Below, in pieces: positions 50,272 to 58,708 of a DNA stretch of 64,000 nt; position 1 is the first letter of the stretch; each line of letters starts with the position of its first letter. The position numbers and the translations under genes were made by a program. The DNA lies in assembly GCF_016405905.1 (NCBI RefSeq), contig NZ_JAEFCB010000029.1:1-64000 (forward strand). Reading direction: 5' to 3'. Under the pieces are notes generated by a model. The model saw only the letters and a program-made list of their open reading frames with translations, did no database searches and was not told where the DNA came from. The DNA is from Variovorax sp. IB41. GTDB lineage: Bacteria > Pseudomonadota > Gammaproteobacteria > Burkholderiales > Burkholderiaceae_C.

Positions 50272-50285
50272 TGAAACCGGTTTCA
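50272..50285. promoter_or_regulatory. PtxS-type operator in front of the ABC-kgu-ptxS operon
   Basis: TGAAACCGGTTTCA is a perfect 14-bp palindrome, 59 bases upstream of the first permease ATG. It equals the operator reported for PtxS, the LacI-family 2-ketogluconate repressor of Pseudomonas. It directly adjoins a -10-like TATAAG (50286-50291), so a bound repressor would cover the promoter core. The LacI-family gene at the end of this operon is the obvious ligand. Confidence 0.85.
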
Positions 50286-50344
50286 TATAAGCTGCAAGCA
50301 TTCTTTTGGAGGCCTGCGCACGGCCCTGCCGTGTACGCCGAACC

Positions 50345-51016
50345 ATGAACTACCAGTTTCAATTCGACGCCGTTTTCGCCGCCTGGCCGCTCTTGCTCAA
50401 GGGCACGTGGATCACGGTCCAGCTCTCGCTCATCGCGACGGTGCTGGGCCTGGTGGTCGCGATCTTCTGCGCCTGGGGCAAGACCTCGGGGCCGGGGTGG
50501 CTGCGCTTCATCGTCAATGCCTACATCGAGGTGATCCGCAACACGCCGTTCCTCGTGCAGCTGTTCTTTTTCTTCTTCGCGCTGCCGGCCATCGGCCTGC
50601 GCTGGTCGCCGCAGACGGCCGCGCTGGTGGCGATGGTGGTGAACCTGGGCGCCTACGCCACCGAGATCATCCGCGCGGGCATCGAGTCGATTCCCAAGGG
50701 GCAGATCGAGGCGGGCCGCGCGCTCAACCTCAAGCCCTGGGAGATCTTCCGCTTCGTCATCATCAAGCCCGCGCTCAAGGCCATCTATCCGGCGCTCACG
50801 AGCCAGTTCATCCTCTTGATGCTGAGCTCGGCGGTGGTGTCGGTCATCTCGGCCGACGACCTCACTTCGGTGGCCGCCAACCTGCAGTCGCAGACCTTCC
50901 GCAGCTTCGAGATCTACATCGTGGTGGCCGCCATCTATCTCGCGCTGGCGCTGGCCTTCTCGGCGATGTTCAAGCTCATCTACAAGCGCACGCTCAACTA
51001 TCCGGACCGCCGGTAA
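50345..51016 (+). CDS. PAAT-family ABC transporter permease (probable 2-ketogluconate importer)
   Basis: This inner-membrane permease of 223 residues belongs to the polar amino acid (His/Glu/Arg/opine) ABC family. It has about five membrane helices and an EAA loop (GIESIPKGQIEAGRALNLKPWEIFRFVII). It is the first gene of an operon encoding two permeases, a binding protein, an ATPase and 2-ketogluconate enzymes. Family and partners are clear; the sugar-acid substrate is inferred from the operon and operator. Confidence 0.85.
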   Translation: MNYQFQFDAVFAAWPLLLKGTWITVQLSLIATVLGLVVAIFCAWGKTSGPGWLRFIVNAYIEVIRNTPFLVQLFFFFFALPAIGLRWSPQTAALVAMVVNLGAYATEIIRAGIESIPKGQIEAGRALNLKPWEIFRFVIIKPALKAIYPALTSQFILLMLSSAVVSVISADDLTSVAANLQSQTFRSFEIYIVVAAIYLALALAFSAMFKLIYKRTLNYPDRR

Positions 51017-51041
51017 CGAGCGCCGAACGGAAGAAAACATC

Positions 51042-51695
51042 ATGCGCACCTTCGGCTTTCCCGAATTCCTTTTCATCCTCGAAGCGGCCCAGTGGACGCT
51101 GGCGCTGTCGGCCATCGCGTTCGTCGGCGGCGCGGTCCTGGGCCTGGTCATCGCGCTCATGCGCACCTCCGATTCGACCTGGGCGCGCAATGCCTCGATG
51201 GTCTTCATCCAGGTGTTCCAGGGCACGCCGCTCCTGCTGCAACTGTTCCTCATCTTCTTCGGCGCGCCGGTGCTGGGGCTGGACATCAACCCGTGGATCG
51301 CCGCGGGCGTGGCGCTCATCCTGAACAGCGCGGCGTTCCTCGGCGAGATCTGGCGCGGCTGCATCGAGGCCATTCCGCGCGGCCAGTGGGAAGCGGCCGA
51401 GGCGCTGAGCCTGAAGTACGGCGCACGCATGCGCGACGTGGTGCTGCCGCAGGCCTTCAAGATCGCGCTCGCGCCCACGGTGGGGTATCTCGTGCAGATC
51501 ATCAAGGGCACCTCGCTGGCGGCCATCATCGGCTTCACCGAGATCACCCGCGCGGGGCAGATCATCAACAACGCCACCTTCCAGCCGCTCATCGTGTTCT
51601 CGGTGGTGGCGGCGATCTACTTCGTGATCTGCTGGCCGCTGTCGCTCCTCGCGGCGCGCATGGAGCGCAAGCGCGCCCGGGCCCTCGCACGCTGA
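51042..51695 (+). CDS. PAAT-family ABC transporter permease, second subunit
   Basis: This is the partner permease, 217 residues, starting 25 bases after the first. It has about five membrane helices and an EAA loop (CIEAIPRGQWEAAEALSLKYGARMRDVVLPQ). The presence of two different permeases gives a heterodimeric HisQM-like channel. It shares the family of amino acid importers, but the following genes encode a 2-ketogluconate pathway. Confidence 0.85.
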   Translation: MRTFGFPEFLFILEAAQWTLALSAIAFVGGAVLGLVIALMRTSDSTWARNASMVFIQVFQGTPLLLQLFLIFFGAPVLGLDINPWIAAGVALILNSAAFLGEIWRGCIEAIPRGQWEAAEALSLKYGARMRDVVLPQAFKIALAPTVGYLVQIIKGTSLAAIIGFTEITRAGQIINNATFQPLIVFSVVAAIYFVICWPLSLLAARMERKRARALAR

Positions 51696-51747
51696 TTCAT
51701 TTCCGTTTTTCTCGTCGCTTCCTTTCTTTATTCAGGAGACACATCCC

Positions 51748-52545
51748 ATGACCCGTACCTCTACCCGCCGCGCAGCGCTCGCAGCCCTTGGCCTCGGTGC
51801 CGCCCTCACCGTGTTCGCGCCTTTCGCCTCGGCGCAAAGCGTGGCCGACATCAAGAAGAAGGGCGAGATCACCATCGGCATGCTGGTCGACTTTCCGCCC
51901 TACGGCACCACCGATGCGAAGAACCAGCCCGACGGCTACGACGCCGACGTGGCCAAGCTGCTGGCCAAGGACTGGGGCGTGAAGGCCAACATCGTGCCGG
52001 TGACCGGCCCGAACCGCATTCCCTTCCTCCTGACCAACAAGGTCGACCTGCTGGTCGCCTCGCTGGCCGTGACGCCCGAGCGCGCCAAGCAGGTGCAGTT
52101 CTCGCAGCCCTACGCGGCCGCCACCATCGTGCTGTACGGCGCGACCAAGACGCCCATCAAGGCAGCGACCGACCTGAAGGGCCTGCGCGTGGGCGTGGCT
52201 CGCGCCTCGACGCAAGACGTGGCCGTGACCAAGGCCGCACCCGAGGGCACCGAGATCCGCCGCTTCGACGACGACGCCTCGGCCATGCAGGCGCTGATCT
52301 CGGGCCAGGTCGATGCGATCGGCTGCTCGGTCACCGTCGCCGCGCAGATCGCCAAGCGCGTGCCCGCCGGCACCTACGAAAACAAGTTCACGCTGGTGCA
52401 GCAGTCGATGGGCATCGCGATGCGCCCGGGCCAGGAAGAGCTGACCAAGGCGGTGAACGAGTTCGTGCAGAAGAACACCGCCAACGGCGAGCTGAACAAG
52501 CTCTATCAAAAGTGGCTGCAGGCCGACCTCCCGAAGATGCAATAA
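51748..52545 (+). CDS. PAAT-family periplasmic binding protein, atypical ligand pocket
   Basis: This periplasmic receptor (265 residues) belongs to SBP family 3. The signal peptide ends near ASAQ (residue 30). The carboxylate-binding Arg of the family is present (R112 in TPERAKQVQF). At the place where HisJ, GlnH and related proteins carry the Asp that binds the alpha-amino group (DAxxxD), this protein has D189-A-I-G-C-S194, so the amino-group ligand is lost. This fits a ligand with a carboxylate but no alpha-amino group, such as 2-ketogluconate. The alignment was made by eye. Confidence 0.82.
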   Translation: MTRTSTRRAALAALGLGAALTVFAPFASAQSVADIKKKGEITIGMLVDFPPYGTTDAKNQPDGYDADVAKLLAKDWGVKANIVPVTGPNRIPFLLTNKVDLLVASLAVTPERAKQVQFSQPYAAATIVLYGATKTPIKAATDLKGLRVGVARASTQDVAVTKAAPEGTEIRRFDDDASAMQALISGQVDAIGCSVTVAAQIAKRVPAGTYENKFTLVQQSMGIAMRPGQEELTKAVNEFVQKNTANGELNKLYQKWLQADLPKMQ

Positions 52546-52572
52546 GCCAGAGCGCTTGAAGGAAACCCTGGC

Positions 52573-53320
<748 letters not shown>

Positions 53321-53328
<8 letters not shown>

Positions 53329-53363
53329 TCGCCCACTGATCGCCCACTGATCGCCTATTGATG
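53321..53363. repeat. 11-bp tandem repeat at the ATPase-kguE junction
   Basis: Three consecutive copies of CCCAnTGATCG (53321-53331, 53332-53342 and 53343-53353; n is T in the first copy and C in the others) are followed by a degenerate fourth (CCTATTGATG). The first copy carries the ATPase stop codon (TGA at 53326-53328) and the last carries the kguE start ATG at 53361. The 11-base unit is not a multiple of three, so the copies fall in different frames. Confidence 0.7.
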
Positions 53364-54104
53364 TCCTTCGAGGTCCTGATTTCCCTGTCCTCCTTCGGCG
53401 CGGCCGAGGTGGGGCGGCACGGCCAGCTCTGGTGCTCGCAGCTCGCGCGCACGGCTGGCGCCGATTCGGTGGAAGTGCGCGGCGAGATGCTGCGCGATGC
53501 CGAGGCCGAACTGCCTGCGCTCAACGGTCTTGCTTCTGTCTATTCGAGTCCCGAAGGCCTGTGGGCCCAAGGCGGCTGGCTCGACAGCGCGGCGCTCAAG
53601 CGCGGCATCGCCGCCGCCACGCGCGTCGGCGCGAAGCGGCTGAAGATGTCCATCGGCGATTTCCAGGCGTCCTCGCACGGCTCGCTCTGGGGCTTGAAGG
53701 TGGAGCTCGCCGAGACCCGCGTCGAACTCCTGATCGAGAACGACCAGACCGTGCGCGCCGGCACGCTGCCCGCGCTGCAGGCCTTCTTCGACGCGGCCGA
53801 CCGCGCCGGCGTCTCGCTCGGCATGACCTTCGACATGGGCAACTGGCACTGGCTCGGCGAATGCCCGCTGCAGGCCGCGCAGGTGCTCGGCCATCGCGTG
53901 CGCTATGTGCACTGCAAGGGCGCGCAGCGGCTGCCGCACAAGTGGGTGGCGGTGCCGCTGGGCGATTCGGTCGCGCCATGGCGCGCGGTGCTCCGCGCGT
54001 TGCCCGCCGATGTGCCCCACGCCATCGAATACCCTCTGGTGGGCGACGACCTCTTGGCCGTCACCCGCACGCAAATCGAATTCATCCGCGCCGCACGGGC
54101 GTAG
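53361..54104 (+). CDS. kguE: TIM-barrel sugar isomerase/epimerase-like protein KguE
   Basis: This 247-residue xylose-isomerase-like TIM-barrel protein matches the position and length of KguE of Pseudomonas 2-ketogluconate operons, whose exact role is unclear. Conserved metal-binding residues of the fold are visible in VELLIENDQTV (Glu, Asp), GMTFDMGNWHW (Asp, His) and VRYVHCKGAQR (His). The ATG at 53361 is chosen. kguK follows after 7 bases. Confidence 0.78.
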   Translation: MSFEVLISLSSFGAAEVGRHGQLWCSQLARTAGADSVEVRGEMLRDAEAELPALNGLASVYSSPEGLWAQGGWLDSAALKRGIAAATRVGAKRLKMSIGDFQASSHGSLWGLKVELAETRVELLIENDQTVRAGTLPALQAFFDAADRAGVSLGMTFDMGNWHWLGECPLQAAQVLGHRVRYVHCKGAQRLPHKWVAVPLGDSVAPWRAVLRALPADVPHAIEYPLVGDDLLAVTRTQIEFIRAARA

Positions 54105-54111
54105 ACCCCAC

Positions 54112-55065
54112 ATGCCAGAACCCACCGCTTTCGATGTCGCCCTGTTCGGCGAGGCCATGCTGCTGCTCGTGGCGGACCGCCCCGGGCCGCTGGAGGACGC
54201 ACAGGCGTTCCACAAGCGCACCGCGGGCGCCGAGACCAACGTGGCCATCGGCCTTTCGCGGCTTGGCCTGAAGGTGGGCTGGGCCAGCCGCCTGGGCACC
54301 GACTCGATGGGGCGCGCGCTGCTCGCGACGATGAAGGGCGAGGGCATCGACTGCTCGCACGTCATCTGCGACGCGGCGCAGCGCACCGGCTTCCAGTTCA
54401 AGGGCCGCGTCACCGACGGCAGCGATCCGCCGGTCGAATACCACCGCAAGGGCTCGGCCGCGAGCCAGATGGGCCCGGCCGATGTTGACGAGGCCTGGCT
54501 GCGCTCGGCGCGCCACCTGCACGCCACCGGCGTGTTCGCCGCGATCTCCGAGACCAGCCTGCAGGCCGCGCTCAAGACCATGGACGTGATGCGCGCCGCG
54601 GGCCGCACGATCTCATTCGACACCAACCTGCGCCCGACGCTGTGGTCTTCAACCGAGACGATGCGCCACTGGATCAACGAGCTCGCCTCGCGCGCCGACT
54701 GGGTGCTGCCCGGCATCGAAGAGGGGCTGCTGCTCACCGGCCACAGCGAGCCCGAGGCCGTCGCGCGCTTCTACCGCGAACGCGGCGCGAAGCTCGTGGT
54801 GGTGAAGCTCGGCGCCGAGGGCGCCTACTACGACAGCGACGTGGCGGGCACCGGCCGTGTCGATGGTTTTCCGGTGAAGGAAGTGATCGACACCGTGGGT
54901 GCGGGCGACGGCTTCGCGGCCGGCGTGGTGAGCGCGCTGCTCGAAGGCCGGAGCGTGCCCGAGGCGGTGCGCCGCGGCGCCTGGATCGGCGCTCGCGCCG
55001 TGCAGGTGCTGGGCGATACCGAAGGCCTGCCGACGCGCGCCGAACTCGAAGCAGCGGGGCTCTGA
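54112..55065 (+). CDS. kguK: 2-ketogluconokinase (PfkB family)
   Basis: This PfkB/ribokinase-fold kinase has 317 residues. It probably phosphorylates 2-keto-D-gluconate to 2-keto-6-phosphogluconate. Signatures are the N-terminal FGEAMLLLV, KRTAGAETNVAIGLSRLG and the C-terminal catalytic motif DTVGAGDGFAAGVVSALLEG, where the Asp is the base. Similar enzymes include 2-keto-3-deoxygluconate kinase; I prefer the 2-ketogluconate role because of the KguE-KguK-KguD-PtxS order. Confidence 0.82.
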   Translation: MPEPTAFDVALFGEAMLLLVADRPGPLEDAQAFHKRTAGAETNVAIGLSRLGLKVGWASRLGTDSMGRALLATMKGEGIDCSHVICDAAQRTGFQFKGRVTDGSDPPVEYHRKGSAASQMGPADVDEAWLRSARHLHATGVFAAISETSLQAALKTMDVMRAAGRTISFDTNLRPTLWSSTETMRHWINELASRADWVLPGIEEGLLLTGHSEPEAVARFYRERGAKLVVVKLGAEGAYYDSDVAGTGRVDGFPVKEVIDTVGAGDGFAAGVVSALLEGRSVPEAVRRGAWIGARAVQVLGDTEGLPTRAELEAAGL

Positions 55066-55070
55066 ACACC

Positions 55071-56051
55071 ATGGCGAAAAAGAACGTGCTCGTTTTCCGG
55101 CCCCTGCCCGAAGACCAGTTGGCGCGCCTGCAGTCCGCGCACCACGTCACCCTGGCCGATCCGCGCAAGGAGCCAGAGGCCTTCGCCGCCGCGCTCGCGA
55201 CCGCGAACGGCCTGATCGGATCGAGCCACACGGTCGATGCCGCGCTGCTGGATGCGGCGCCGCAACTCGAGGTGATTTCGAGTGTCTCGGTCGGCGTGGA
55301 CAACTACCCGCTGGCCGAGCTGCACCGGCGCGGCATCGTGCTGTGCCACACGCCCGACGTGCTCACCGAGACGGTGGCCGACACGGTGTTCGCGATCCTC
55401 ATGGCCACGCAGCGCCGCGTCGTCGAACTCTCGAACCTCGTGCGCGAAGGCCGCTGGACGAAGAACATCGGCGAAGAACTCTTCGGCACCGACGTGCATG
55501 GCAAGACGCTGGGCATCCTCGGCTTCGGCCGCATCGGCCAGGCCGTGGCACGCCGCGCCGCGCTGGGCTTCGGCATGCCGGTGCTCTATCACGCGCGCCG
55601 CCCGGTCGACCTGGCCGTGCAGGCGCCCGAGCTGCAGGGCCGCGCCACGCACACGCCGCTGGACGACCTGCTCGCGCGCGCCGACATCGTGCTCGCGATG
55701 CTGCCGCTGACCGATGCCACGCGCGGCATGATCGACGCCGCCTTCTTCGCGCGCATGAAGCCGGGCGCATCGTTCATCAACGGCGGCCGCGGCGCCACCG
55801 TGAACGAAGCGGCGCTGCTGCACGCGCTGGACCACGGCACGCTGCGCGCTGCGGGCCTGGATGTGTTCGCGAAGGAACCGCTGCCCGCCGATTCGCCGCT
55901 GCGCACGCACCCGCGCGTGACGCCACTGCCGCACATCGGCTCGGCCACGCATGAGACGCGGCACGCGATGGCCGAGCTCGCGACGACCAATCTGCTGCAG
56001 GTGCTGGCCGGCGAGAAGCCGACGGCGCCGTACGACACCGCTGCCGCGTGA
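55071..56051 (+). CDS. kguD: 2-ketogluconate-6-phosphate reductase
   Basis: This is a D-isomer-specific 2-hydroxyacid dehydrogenase of 326 residues, expected to reduce 2-keto-6-phosphogluconate to 6-phosphogluconate. The Rossmann fingerprint GILGFGRIGQAVARRA is near 150-165. The catalytic Arg lies in SVGVDNYPLAEL-to-INGGRGATVNE, the Glu in FAKEPLPADSPL and the His in PHIGSATHETR. Similar to glyoxylate/hydroxypyruvate reductases, which have the same fold; the operon decides for KguD. It ends 1 base before the ptxS start. Confidence 0.82.
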   Translation: MAKKNVLVFRPLPEDQLARLQSAHHVTLADPRKEPEAFAAALATANGLIGSSHTVDAALLDAAPQLEVISSVSVGVDNYPLAELHRRGIVLCHTPDVLTETVADTVFAILMATQRRVVELSNLVREGRWTKNIGEELFGTDVHGKTLGILGFGRIGQAVARRAALGFGMPVLYHARRPVDLAVQAPELQGRATHTPLDDLLARADIVLAMLPLTDATRGMIDAAFFARMKPGASFINGGRGATVNEAALLHALDHGTLRAAGLDVFAKEPLPADSPLRTHPRVTPLPHIGSATHETRHAMAELATTNLLQVLAGEKPTAPYDTAAA

Positions 56052-56052
56052 C

Positions 56053-57078
56053 ATGAAGCCCACGGGCCGCGCCACCATCGCCGATGTCGCCGAAGCGGCG
56101 GGCGTTTCCAAAGCCACCGTCTCTCGCTTCCTCAACCACCGTGAGCGCTTGCTCAGCCCCGACATCGCCGCGCGCGTCGAGGTGGCCATCGCCAAGCTCG
56201 CGTATTCGCCGAGCCCGATGGCGCAGGCGCTGAGCCATGGACGCTCGCGGCTCATCGGCCTGATCGTGGCCGACATCACCAACCCGTATTCGGTGGCGGT
56301 GCTGCGCGGCGCCGAGAAGGCCTGCCAGGACGCCGGCTACCTCGTGATGCTGTTCAACCTCGGCAACGAGAGCGAACGCGAGCGCGAAGCGATCGATGCG
56401 CTCGCGGGCTACCAGGTCGACGGGTTCATCCTCAACACGCTGGGCCGCGGCAGCAACGTGGTCGATGCGGTCACGCTGCACGGCAAGCCCGCGGTGCTGG
56501 TCGACCGGCGCCACACCGGCATGCACACCGATTTCGTCTCGCTCGACAACCACGCAGCGATGCAGGCCACCTGCGGACATCTGCTCGAAGGCGGCTACCG
56601 CGAACTGCTCTACGTCACCGAGCCGCAGAAGGGCGTGAGCTCGCGGCGCGAGCGAACCGCGGCGTTCGGTGCCTGCGTGACGGCACACGAGCCGCGCGTG
56701 GCGGGCGAGGTGTTCGAATCGGTCGAGGGCGAAAACGATGCGCTGGACGCCGCACTGACCGCCTTGCGCAAGCGCGCCAGGCGCGGCCGTCGCGCCGCCG
56801 TGGTCGCGGGCAATGCCGTGGTCACGCTGCGCGTGGCGCAGGCCATGGCGCGCCTGGGCCTGCAGTTCGGCGACGACCTGGGCTTCGTCGGCTTCGACGA
56901 TCCCGAGTGGGCGTCGCTGATCGGGCCGGGCCTGAGCACCGTCGCTCAGCCCACCGATGCCATCGGCCGCACGGCTGCTACATGCCTGATCGAGCGGCTG
57001 CGGGGGCTGGATTCGGCGCCGCGCCAGCTGCTGCTTCCGGGAGAGCTGATGGTGCGGGGTTCGTCGCAGGCGCTCTAG
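56053..57078 (+). CDS. ptxS: LacI-family repressor PtxS
   Basis: This is a LacI-type regulator of 341 residues. The helix-turn-helix (TIADVAEAAGVSKATVSRFLN, 8-28) is followed by the hinge and a periplasmic-binding-protein-like effector domain (about 60-335). It closes the operon that begins with the TGAAACCGGTTTCA palindrome, the known PtxS recognition sequence. PtxS releases its operator when it binds 2-ketogluconate. The final 101 bases overlap the convergent GMC oxidoreductase gene. Confidence 0.85.
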   Translation: MKPTGRATIADVAEAAGVSKATVSRFLNHRERLLSPDIAARVEVAIAKLAYSPSPMAQALSHGRSRLIGLIVADITNPYSVAVLRGAEKACQDAGYLVMLFNLGNESEREREAIDALAGYQVDGFILNTLGRGSNVVDAVTLHGKPAVLVDRRHTGMHTDFVSLDNHAAMQATCGHLLEGGYRELLYVTEPQKGVSSRRERTAAFGACVTAHEPRVAGEVFESVEGENDALDAALTALRKRARRGRRAAVVAGNAVVTLRVAQAMARLGLQFGDDLGFVGFDDPEWASLIGPGLSTVAQPTDAIGRTAATCLIERLRGLDSAPRQLLLPGELMVRGSSQAL

Positions 57079-58708
57079 CATCCTGCACCGCGCGGTCGAA
57101 CGTGATCGGCCCGCGCATCCAGTCGGCCGCGCGCTCCGCAATCATGATCGTCGGCGCATTGGTGTTGCCGCCGACGAGCGTCGGCATCACCGAGGCATCG
57201 ACCACGCGCAGGTTTTCGATGCCGTGCACGCGCAGTTTCGGATCGACCACCGCCATCGCGTCCACGCCCATCTTGCAGGTGCCCACCGGATGGTAGATGG
57301 TGTCGGCGCGCGCGCGGATGTGCTGCGTGAGTTCTTCGTCGGTGTGCGCATCGGCCGTGTAGAGCTCGCTGTGCCGGTACTTCTGAAGCGCTGGTGCGCG
57401 CAGGATCTCGCGCATCTTCTTCACGCCCTGCAACAGCAGCGCCATGTCTTCGGGCTCGGAGAGAAACCGTGGGTCGATGCGCGGCGCGGACAGCGGGTTC
57501 GCGTCGTTCAGCCGCACGTCGCCGCGGCCCTTGGGCCGCAGCACGCACACATGGCATGAGAAGCCGAAGCCCATGTGCAGCTTGCGCGCATGGTCGTCGG
57601 TGATCGCGATCACGAAGTGCAATTGCAGGTCGGGCCGGCGCAGCTCGGGCGATGACTTGATGAAGGCGCCGCCTTCGGCAAAGGGCGTCGCGACCAGGCC
57701 CTTGCCACTCTTGCGCCATTCGAAGACCGCCTTCATCAGATTCAGCCCGGCCTTCACGCCGATGCCGAAGAGGTCGGTGTCCTTTGAGGTGTAGGCGAGG
57801 ATGAAGTCGGTGTGGTCCTGCAGGTTCTGGCCGACGCCCGGCAGCGCATGCCGCACCGCGATGCCGTGGCGGGCCAGCTCGGCGGGGTCGCCGATGCCCG
57901 AGAGCATCAACAGCTGCGGCGAGTTGAAGGCGCCGCCGCACAGCGCCACTTCGCGGTGCGCGCGGATGACTTCGGTGGTGCCGCCGCGCCGCACTTCCAC
58001 GCCGGTGGCGCGCTTGTCCTCGAGCACCACGCGCAGGGCCTGCGTGCCGGTCAGCACCTTGAGGTTGGGGCGGTTCATCGCCGGATGCAGGTACGCCGCG
58101 GCGGCCGAGCAGCGCTCGCCGTTCTTGGCGCCGCCGTGGAACTGCGTGACCTGGTAGAGGCCCGCGCCCTCCTGCTCGGGGCCGTTGAAATCGTCGTTGC
58201 GTGCAATGCCGCACTCCGCCGCCGCGCGCACGAAGTCTTCGGTGATCGGGCGCGGGCTCTGCTGCTCGGAGACCTGCAGCGGCCCGTCGGCGCCGTGCAG
58301 CGCGCTCTCGCCGCGCTCGTTGCCTTCGGCGCGCTTGAAGTACGGCAGCACCTCGTCGAACGACCAGCCCGCGCAGCCGGCGTTCGCCCAATCGTCGTAG
58401 TCGTCGCGGTGGCCGCGCACGTAGAGCATGGCGTTGATCGCGCTCGATCCGCCGAGGCCGCGCCCGCGCGGCTGGTAGCCGCGGCGCCCGTTCAGGCCGG
58501 GCTGCGGCACGGTCTGGTAGGCGTAGTTGTTGATGCGCGGGCGGCCCGGCAGCATCGCCACCGTGGCAGCCGGCGCCCGCACCAGGATGCCGCGGCCGTC
58601 GCCGCCGGCTTCGAGCAGGCAGACCGTGACGCCCGGGTCTTCGCTGAGGCGGGAGGCCAGCGTGGCGCCGCCCGAACCTCCGCCCACGATCACGTAGTCG
58701 AATTCCAT
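56978..58708 (-). CDS. GMC oxidoreductase (choline dehydrogenase-like)
   Basis: This FAD-dependent GMC-family enzyme oxidises alcohols or sugars. The 576-residue product starts at ATG 58708 with the dinucleotide fold MEFDYVIVGGGSGGATLASRLSE, followed by RGRGLGGSSAINAMLYVRG (GMC signature 1) and, near the end, YHPVGTCKMG...DASVMPTLVGGNTNAPTIMIAERAAD. It resembles BetA and alcohol dehydrogenases. The natural C-terminus of the family ends near AADWMRG; here about 38 more residues follow, Ala/Pro-rich, reading antisense to the end of ptxS. Confidence 0.87.
   Translation of the reverse strand: MEFDYVIVGGGSGGATLASRLSEDPGVTVCLLEAGGDGRGILVRAPAATVAMLPGRPRINNYAYQTVPQPGLNGRRGYQPRGRGLGGSSAINAMLYVRGHRDDYDDWANAGCAGWSFDEVLPYFKRAEGNERGESALHGADGPLQVSEQQSPRPITEDFVRAAAECGIARNDDFNGPEQEGAGLYQVTQFHGGAKNGERCSAAAAYLHPAMNRPNLKVLTGTQALRVVLEDKRATGVEVRRGGTTEVIRAHREVALCGGAFNSPQLLMLSGIGDPAELARHGIAVRHALPGVGQNLQDHTDFILAYTSKDTDLFGIGVKAGLNLMKAVFEWRKSGKGLVATPFAEGGAFIKSSPELRRPDLQLHFVIAITDDHARKLHMGFGFSCHVCVLRPKGRGDVRLNDANPLSAPRIDPRFLSEPEDMALLLQGVKKMREILRAPALQKYRHSELYTADAHTDEELTQHIRARADTIYHPVGTCKMGVDAMAVVDPKLRVHGIENLRVVDASVMPTLVGGNTNAPTIMIAERAADWMRGPITFDRAVQDARAPATNPAPSALPEAAAGAAPNPAPAAARSGM

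Follow-up and report, generated by a model that had tools for sequence, protein, structure and literature searches.

How does a bacterium acquire 2-ketogluconate (2KG) if the operon for its catabolism contains no gene for the carrier KguT? This question is raised by a palindrome and the eight genes downstream of it, found between positions 50,272 and 57,078 of the contig NZ_JAEFCB010000029.1 of Variovorax sp. IB41; the window analyzed here is the whole stretch of 64,000 nt from positions 1 to 64,000 of that contig. 2KG is an oxidized form of glucose, and carriers of the KguT type, which belong to the MFS, are proton-driven. In the position of such a carrier, the Variovorax locus encodes an ABC importer of the PAAT family. 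We propose, at a probability of about 0.78, that this is a 2KG operon in which KguT has been replaced by an ATP-driven PAAT importer of 2KG, or of a close 2-keto sugar acid, placed under the LacI-family repressor PtxS. This suggests that the PAAT family also imports sugar acids.

All eight genes are intact and lie on the forward strand 3' of the palindrome, with intergenic gaps of 25, 52, 27, 32, 7, 5, and 1 bases. Their domain models agree with the gene list of a first-pass annotation made from the letters of the window (two PAAT permeases, a binding protein, an ATPase, a KguE-like protein, a PfkB kinase, a dehydrogenase, and a LacI regulator); its wording of the spacing, 'nine bases-to-tens-of-bases', is only roughly right for eight genes with gaps of 1–52 bases. 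The first four genes code for the importer, namely, permease 1 (50345-51016, 223 aa; TIGR01726, 101.9 bits against a cut-off of 42.2), permease 2 (51042-51695, 217 aa; TIGR01726, 101.6 bits against the same cut-off), both with a BPD_transp_1 domain, a periplasmic receptor of SBP family 3 (51748-52545, 265 aa; SBP_bac_3) whose predicted ligand is 2KG or a close 2-keto sugar acid, and a GlnQ-like ABC ATPase (52573-53328, 251 aa), for which the nearest model is GlnQ with 325 bits, under the cut-off of 379. The HEQRo-type permeases, the family-3 receptor, and the GlnQ-like ATPase are together the components of a PAAT importer, and the operon holds no other transporter gene; in particular, it lacks the MFS carrier KguT.

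The next four genes code for KguE, a xylose-isomerase-like TIM-barrel protein and putative epimerase (53361-54104, 247 aa), KguK, a 2-ketogluconate kinase with a PfkB domain of the eponymous family (54112-55065, 317 aa), KguD, a 2-keto-6-phosphogluconate reductase of the D-2-hydroxyacid dehydrogenase type (55071-56051, 326 aa), and PtxS, a LacI-family repressor with LacI and Peripla_BP_3 domains (56053-57078, 341 aa). Among PDB structures, KguE matches only 1yx1 at a threshold of E 0.001 (E 1.1e-39); this entry is named 'hypothetical protein PA2260', and we take PA2260 to be kguE. PA2262 is given as kguT in PMC6237876. In comparisons with enterobacterial kgu clusters, KguE is 37-38% identical to the KguE adjoining kguK-kguT-kguD, KguK is 52-53% identical to the kinase of two clusters, KguD is 52-55% identical to its counterpart in two clusters, and PtxS shares 44% identity with the LacI regulator in one of these clusters (L087). 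The best PDB match of KguD is 9m0t, 'Probable 2-ketogluconate reductase'. The joint presence of kguE, kguK, and kguD, together with PtxS and a 14-bp operator, identifies a putative kgu operon, which we class as a variant rather than as a classical kguEKTD operon because KguT is missing from it. A very close solved relative of KguK, 4du5 (548 bits), is named only 'PfkB' and is probably itself a 2-ketogluconate kinase.

The arrangement recurs widely in relatives. We compared the best 80 of 187 relatives obtained by searching species genomes with KguE as the query; these come mostly from Variovorax and Acidovorax, with Pseudacidovorax, Simplicispira, Xenophilus, and others, and since many of the loci are closely related the counts are not independent. 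The full row permease 1-permease 2-receptor-ATPase-KguE-KguK-KguD is found in 71 of the 80, in keeping with the gene order that the first-pass annotation had suggested looking for in related genomes. A further six are broken by contig ends with the ATPase still 5' of KguE, and three, all from Variovorax (L030, L049, and L053), are without the importer. PtxS comes next in 67 of the 71 full-row loci, the remaining four stopping at contig edges. That both the order and the operator are conserved in relatives argues that the arrangement is not due to chance.

In a survey of 250 genomes of the host's family (the window's own included), an orthologue of the receptor with 71-100% identity is present in 32, with three more having only a relative of 45-50% at 1e-60, and KguE is present in 28. 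Among these 28, the receptor orthologue lies beside KguE on one contig in 22 and is split from it at contig ends in two, a PAAT importer of another kind stands there in one (G322, L162), and three of one genus (L163-L165) have none, receptor matches at 1e-40 in those three being absent or on other contigs. On the 3' side of kguD, both L163 (from models) and L164 (by eye) have genes for a shikimate-dehydrogenase-like protein and a TRAP receptor (DctP); a TRAP permease was not among the genes picked at either locus. The receptor also occurs without KguE in eight genomes, and in the seven of these that are readable KguK adjoins the importer every time, PtxS in six, and KguD in five, so that, of these genes, the kinase has the tightest linkage to the importer. 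A class-wide survey was too thin to add to this, with KguE in 2/274 genomes and the receptor in 2/274.

The operator, the 14-bp palindrome TGAAACCGGTTTCA (50272-50285, assigned to neither strand), is an exact match to the published site of Pseudomonas PtxS, whose effector is 2KG according to PMC11678583. Both its position 5' of the operon and its identity with the Pseudomonas site had been noted in the first-pass annotation, and both hold. It is the sole match at ≤2 mismatches in the window, where shuffles expect 0.04, and the sole exact copy in the 6.87-Mb genome, which elsewhere has one place with one mismatch and three with two. The place with one mismatch, G000:C15:45944, is flanked, as judged by eye, by a sugar-type ABC ATPase on one side and a GntR-type regulator on the other; we did not count this palindrome as a PtxS site. 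Once the nine of the 80 nearest loci that have no permease 1 are set aside (L014, L023, L030, L049, L053, L056, L062, L066, and L084), the operator is exact in all 71 that remain, with its first base 26-119 bases 5' of permease 1; all 14 of its columns are invariant across these loci, with the ten nearest flanking columns conserved at 42-94%. Two of the loci without the importer, L030 and L053, keep an exact operator before KguE. In a wider family set comprising 17 loci that have permease 1 (L166-L173, L179-L181, L218, L220, and L222-L225), it is exact in eight, represented only by copies deviating at one or two bases, often paired, in seven, and absent in two. This conservation supports a predicted control of the operon by PtxS. 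Abutting the operator is a putative -10-like hexamer, TATAAG (50286-50291, forward strand), with A as its second base in 67 and as its fourth base in 64 of the 71 loci, these being the most conserved flanking columns. A strict sigma-70 promoter scan gave no match (shuffles expect 0.7), which counts against the -10 assignment. If the hexamer is nevertheless a -10 element, then an invariant operator abutting a TA-A-like motif means that bound PtxS would cover the promoter.

The absence of KguT extends beyond the operon. It was sought with the enterobacterial KguT as the query, at thresholds of 1e-10 in the host's own genome, 1e-60 in 38 genomes (G339, G346, and G368 being left out), and 1e-40 in the genomes without the importer. 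At 1e-60 it was found in none of 32 genomes of the host's family; all three genomes of the family f202 have it, at 76-77% identity and inside the kgu cluster, and the query therefore detects true KguT across the order. Outside the family, G699 has only a 32% relative, plus the second PAAT importer described below, and G622 and G277 have no KguT at 1e-60. The host's own genome yields five MFS matches with 23-32% identity, and for each of the two best the surrounding 4.2 kb that were read contain no kgu gene; an intact KguT elsewhere in the genome, which the first-pass annotation had singled out as counter-evidence to look for, was not found in this search (best match 32%). In the three importer-less Variovorax genomes, the best KguT match is 32% identical for L030 and 31% for L049, with none at 1e-40 for L053, and receptor copies at 1e-40 amount to one of 34% for L030 and none for L049 and L053. 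As a kguT deletion in P. aeruginosa abolishes growth on 2KG (PMC6237876), another importer would be expected wherever a kgu operon lacks KguT.

We aligned the receptor and its orthologues with E. coli ArgT, HisJ, and GlnH, leaving out six of 109 loci that had no receptor match (L023, L030, L049, L053, L062, and L084). Arg77 (ArgT numbering), which we take to be the residue binding the carboxylate in amino-acid receptors, is kept along with Thr121 in 103/103 orthologues, and Asp161, presumably the residue holding the α-amino group in those receptors, is replaced by Ser in 103/103. Likewise, Asp11 is replaced by Leu in all 101 orthologues covering that position. With regard to the features of α-amino-acid receptors in SBP family 3, these orthologues thus retain the carboxylate-binding Arg and lack the amino-group Asp. 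A predicted structure (mean predicted local distance difference test score, pLDDT, 87.7) adopts the family-3 receptor fold; a model of this kind supports that assignment, but it does not tell which ligand is bound. The source names are generic among the best 120 of 2651 matches to the receptor, the commonest being 'polar amino acid transport system substrate-binding protein' and 'transporter substrate-binding domain-containing protein'.

A second, divergent PAAT importer, with the order receptor-permease-permease-ATPase, is found directly 5' of kguE-kguK-kguD at two loci, one in the same family as the window (L162:4015-6947) and one in another family of the order (L212:4024-7023). The receptors of these importers are 44-46% and the ATPases 51-53% identical to those of the window, and their palindromes differ from that of the window by one base at L162 and by two at L212. 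The grouping of both kgu importer types in one clade was rejected by the approximately unbiased test (p-AU 7.4e-6 for the ATPases and 3.0e-6 for the permeases), which had few outside rows (6 and 5) and used groups defined by operon context and set after the pairwise identities were known. In the ATPase tree the first importer type is not recovered as one clade, and the receptor tree (built without the L174 receptor) leaves the order of the two types unsettled. We infer that the two types were recruited separately into kgu operons. The nearest permease relative of the first type is L174 (67% for permease 1), which adjoins a gene scoring 406 bits (cut-off 500) to 2,4-didehydro-3-deoxy-L-rhamnonate hydrolase and whose receptor also has Ser161. 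A paralogue in the window's genome, L178 (G000:C3:16000-31000), groups with the second type and adjoins gluconolactonase-like and epimerase-like genes (perhaps a uronate dehydrogenase), with TRAP and GntR-type genes seen nearby by eye. The second importer type, the L178 and L174 neighborhoods, and the Ser161 of L174 are the ground for a wider reading toward which we lean slightly: a branch of PAAT importers would carry sugar acids, having replaced KguT at least twice independently in PtxS-controlled kgu operons, with sister importers serving rhamnonate- or uronate-type pathways.

Several observations weigh against the proposed 2KG importer. To start with the receptor, its best-scoring solved relatives are amino-acid receptors, which, like the PAAT family assignment, would be expected of an ordinary importer of amino acids or amino-sugar acids (e.g., glucosaminate) that merely shares the promoter. 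Moreover, among 23 family-3 receptors of the same genome taken as a control, only 11 have the Asp and 12 are without it (one with Glu), making its loss informative rather than diagnostic. Set against such an amino-acid importer are the uniform changes of both Asp161 and Asp11 described above, the linkage of the importer to KguK that survives the loss of other kgu genes, and the second PAAT importer occupying the same kgu slot elsewhere; we therefore consider it very improbable.

The phenotypic records bear on whether the importer is the only route. All eight new Variovorax species are reported as 2KG-positive on API ID 32 GN strips in PMC12396923; five of these have importer loci (L033, L036, L040, L042, and L045), and J22R133 has the receptor (P0081), with J2L1-78 left out of this look-up. 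We found no 2KG-negative strain with which to contrast these. What speaks most strongly against an exclusive role is J22R193 (L049), whose decayed kgu locus retains KguE, KguK, and the tail of PtxS, the importer, KguD, and most of PtxS being gone: it is reported as 2KG-positive in the same paper (PMC12396923), though it has neither a receptor at 1e-40 nor a KguT relative above 31%. Hence, either another route operates in that strain or the strip misleads. The claim of the first-pass annotation that the ABC importer replaces KguT can be retained for the operon, a kgu operon with PAAT genes in the place of KguT, with J22R193 speaking against an exclusive role. The same strain would fit an arrangement in which an unrelated MFS or TRAP carrier performs ordinary 2KG uptake, and the ABC importer is a high-affinity supplement that matters only at low 2KG, as would the kgu clusters L163-L165 with no adjoining PAAT importer, one of which (L163) has the TRAP receptor gene 3' of kguD, and the five KguT-like MFS genes of the host with their 23-32% identity. 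Yet the two best of these MFS genes have no kgu gene in their 4.2-kb loci, and the operon offers no other transporter; we regard a mere supplement as rather unlikely.

Finally, L167 and L168 are the two loci of the wider set without the operator, L168 having none before its permease 1. L167 (5622-9591) consists of the importer and KguK alone, without KguD, PtxS, or operator, a content that hints at a substrate needing no reductase. This would suit 2-keto-3-deoxygluconate, and the importer might then take a different 2-keto sugar acid (that compound, 2-ketogulonate, or similar), also phosphorylated by KguK, with 2KG entering by another carrier; the use of 2KG by J22R193 without the importer is compatible with this. 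However, KguD and a PtxS-type operator go with the importer in nearly all loci read, and Pseudomonas PtxS responds to 2KG (PMC11678583), making a different substrate of this kind quite improbable.

We accordingly retain the ATP-driven importer of 2KG or a close 2-keto sugar acid as the preferred interpretation, and for it we infer the ligand, ATP coupling, repression, and induction. The receptor would grip the carboxylate of 2KG (or of a close 2-keto sugar acid) via the conserved Arg, with Ser at the position of the Asp by which amino-acid receptors hold the amino group, and the two permeases and the ATPase would import the substrate at the cost of ATP. KguK would then convert 2KG to 2-keto-6-phosphogluconate and KguD would convert the latter to 6-phosphogluconate. 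PtxS would sit on the palindrome beside the -10 region until released by 2KG.

The substrate might arise in the host or in its neighbors. The genome has two Gluconate_2-dh3 genes, and a GMC oxidoreductase gene lies 3' of the one scanned; such a pair would be consistent with periplasmic formation of 2KG. Neither Gluconate_2-dh3 gene matched a curated NCBIfam family, and the operator, within 3 mismatches, is absent at the gluconate-dehydrogenase-like loci L093 and L094 and also at L102. Another GMC oxidoreductase gene, choline-dehydrogenase-like (56981-58708, reverse strand; 598 bits against a cut-off of 605), converges on the operon, and a similar gene adjoins the decayed locus L049 (by eye). 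Since Pseudomonas-type bacteria release 2KG while growing on glucose (PMC10634833), a receptor system powered by ATP could enable Variovorax and related bacteria to scavenge, at low concentration, the 2KG made by a neighbor.

The titles and abstract openings of part of the literature matches yielded no ABC importer for 2KG, in line with the first-pass annotation, which knew of no described transporter of this family for 2KG, and the phrase '2-ketogluconate ABC' does not occur in the literature text searched. The main-text passages of a LacI regulon study (PMC4052901) that were accessible mention neither PtxS, kgu, nor ketogluconate, with its supplements and RegPrecise being places that may hold an earlier prediction, and ketogluconate is absent from the main text of the GapMind paper (PMC9007349). 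If the branch does carry sugar acids, the amino-acid labels on its receptors mislead in many genomes. Further, the exchange of one type of carrier for another while the operator stays the same would be a clean case of transporter replacement.

Compared with known systems, the operon shares KguE, KguK, KguD, PtxS, and an identical 14-bp operator with the Pseudomonas kgu operon (kguE-kguK-kguT-kguD with ptxS), from which it differs in being without KguT, in starting with the four-gene PAAT importer, and in having ptxS last. The enterobacterial and f202 (Burkholderiales) kgu clusters (L086, L087, L213, L215, and L216) likewise have KguE, KguK, KguD, and a PtxS-like regulator in common with it, but, unlike the window, they carry the MFS gene for KguT between kguK and kguD, and the palindrome of these clusters reads TGGAACCGGTTCCA at L087, L213, L215, and L216, and TGGAACCGGTACCA at L086. 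On the transport side, the operon shares with the PAAT importers GlnHPQ, HisJQMP, and EhuABCD an SBP_bac_3 receptor, two HEQRo-type permeases, and a GlnQ-like ATPase, whereas it is set apart from them by a receptor without the amino-group Asp and by the ties of its genes to sugar-acid catabolism.

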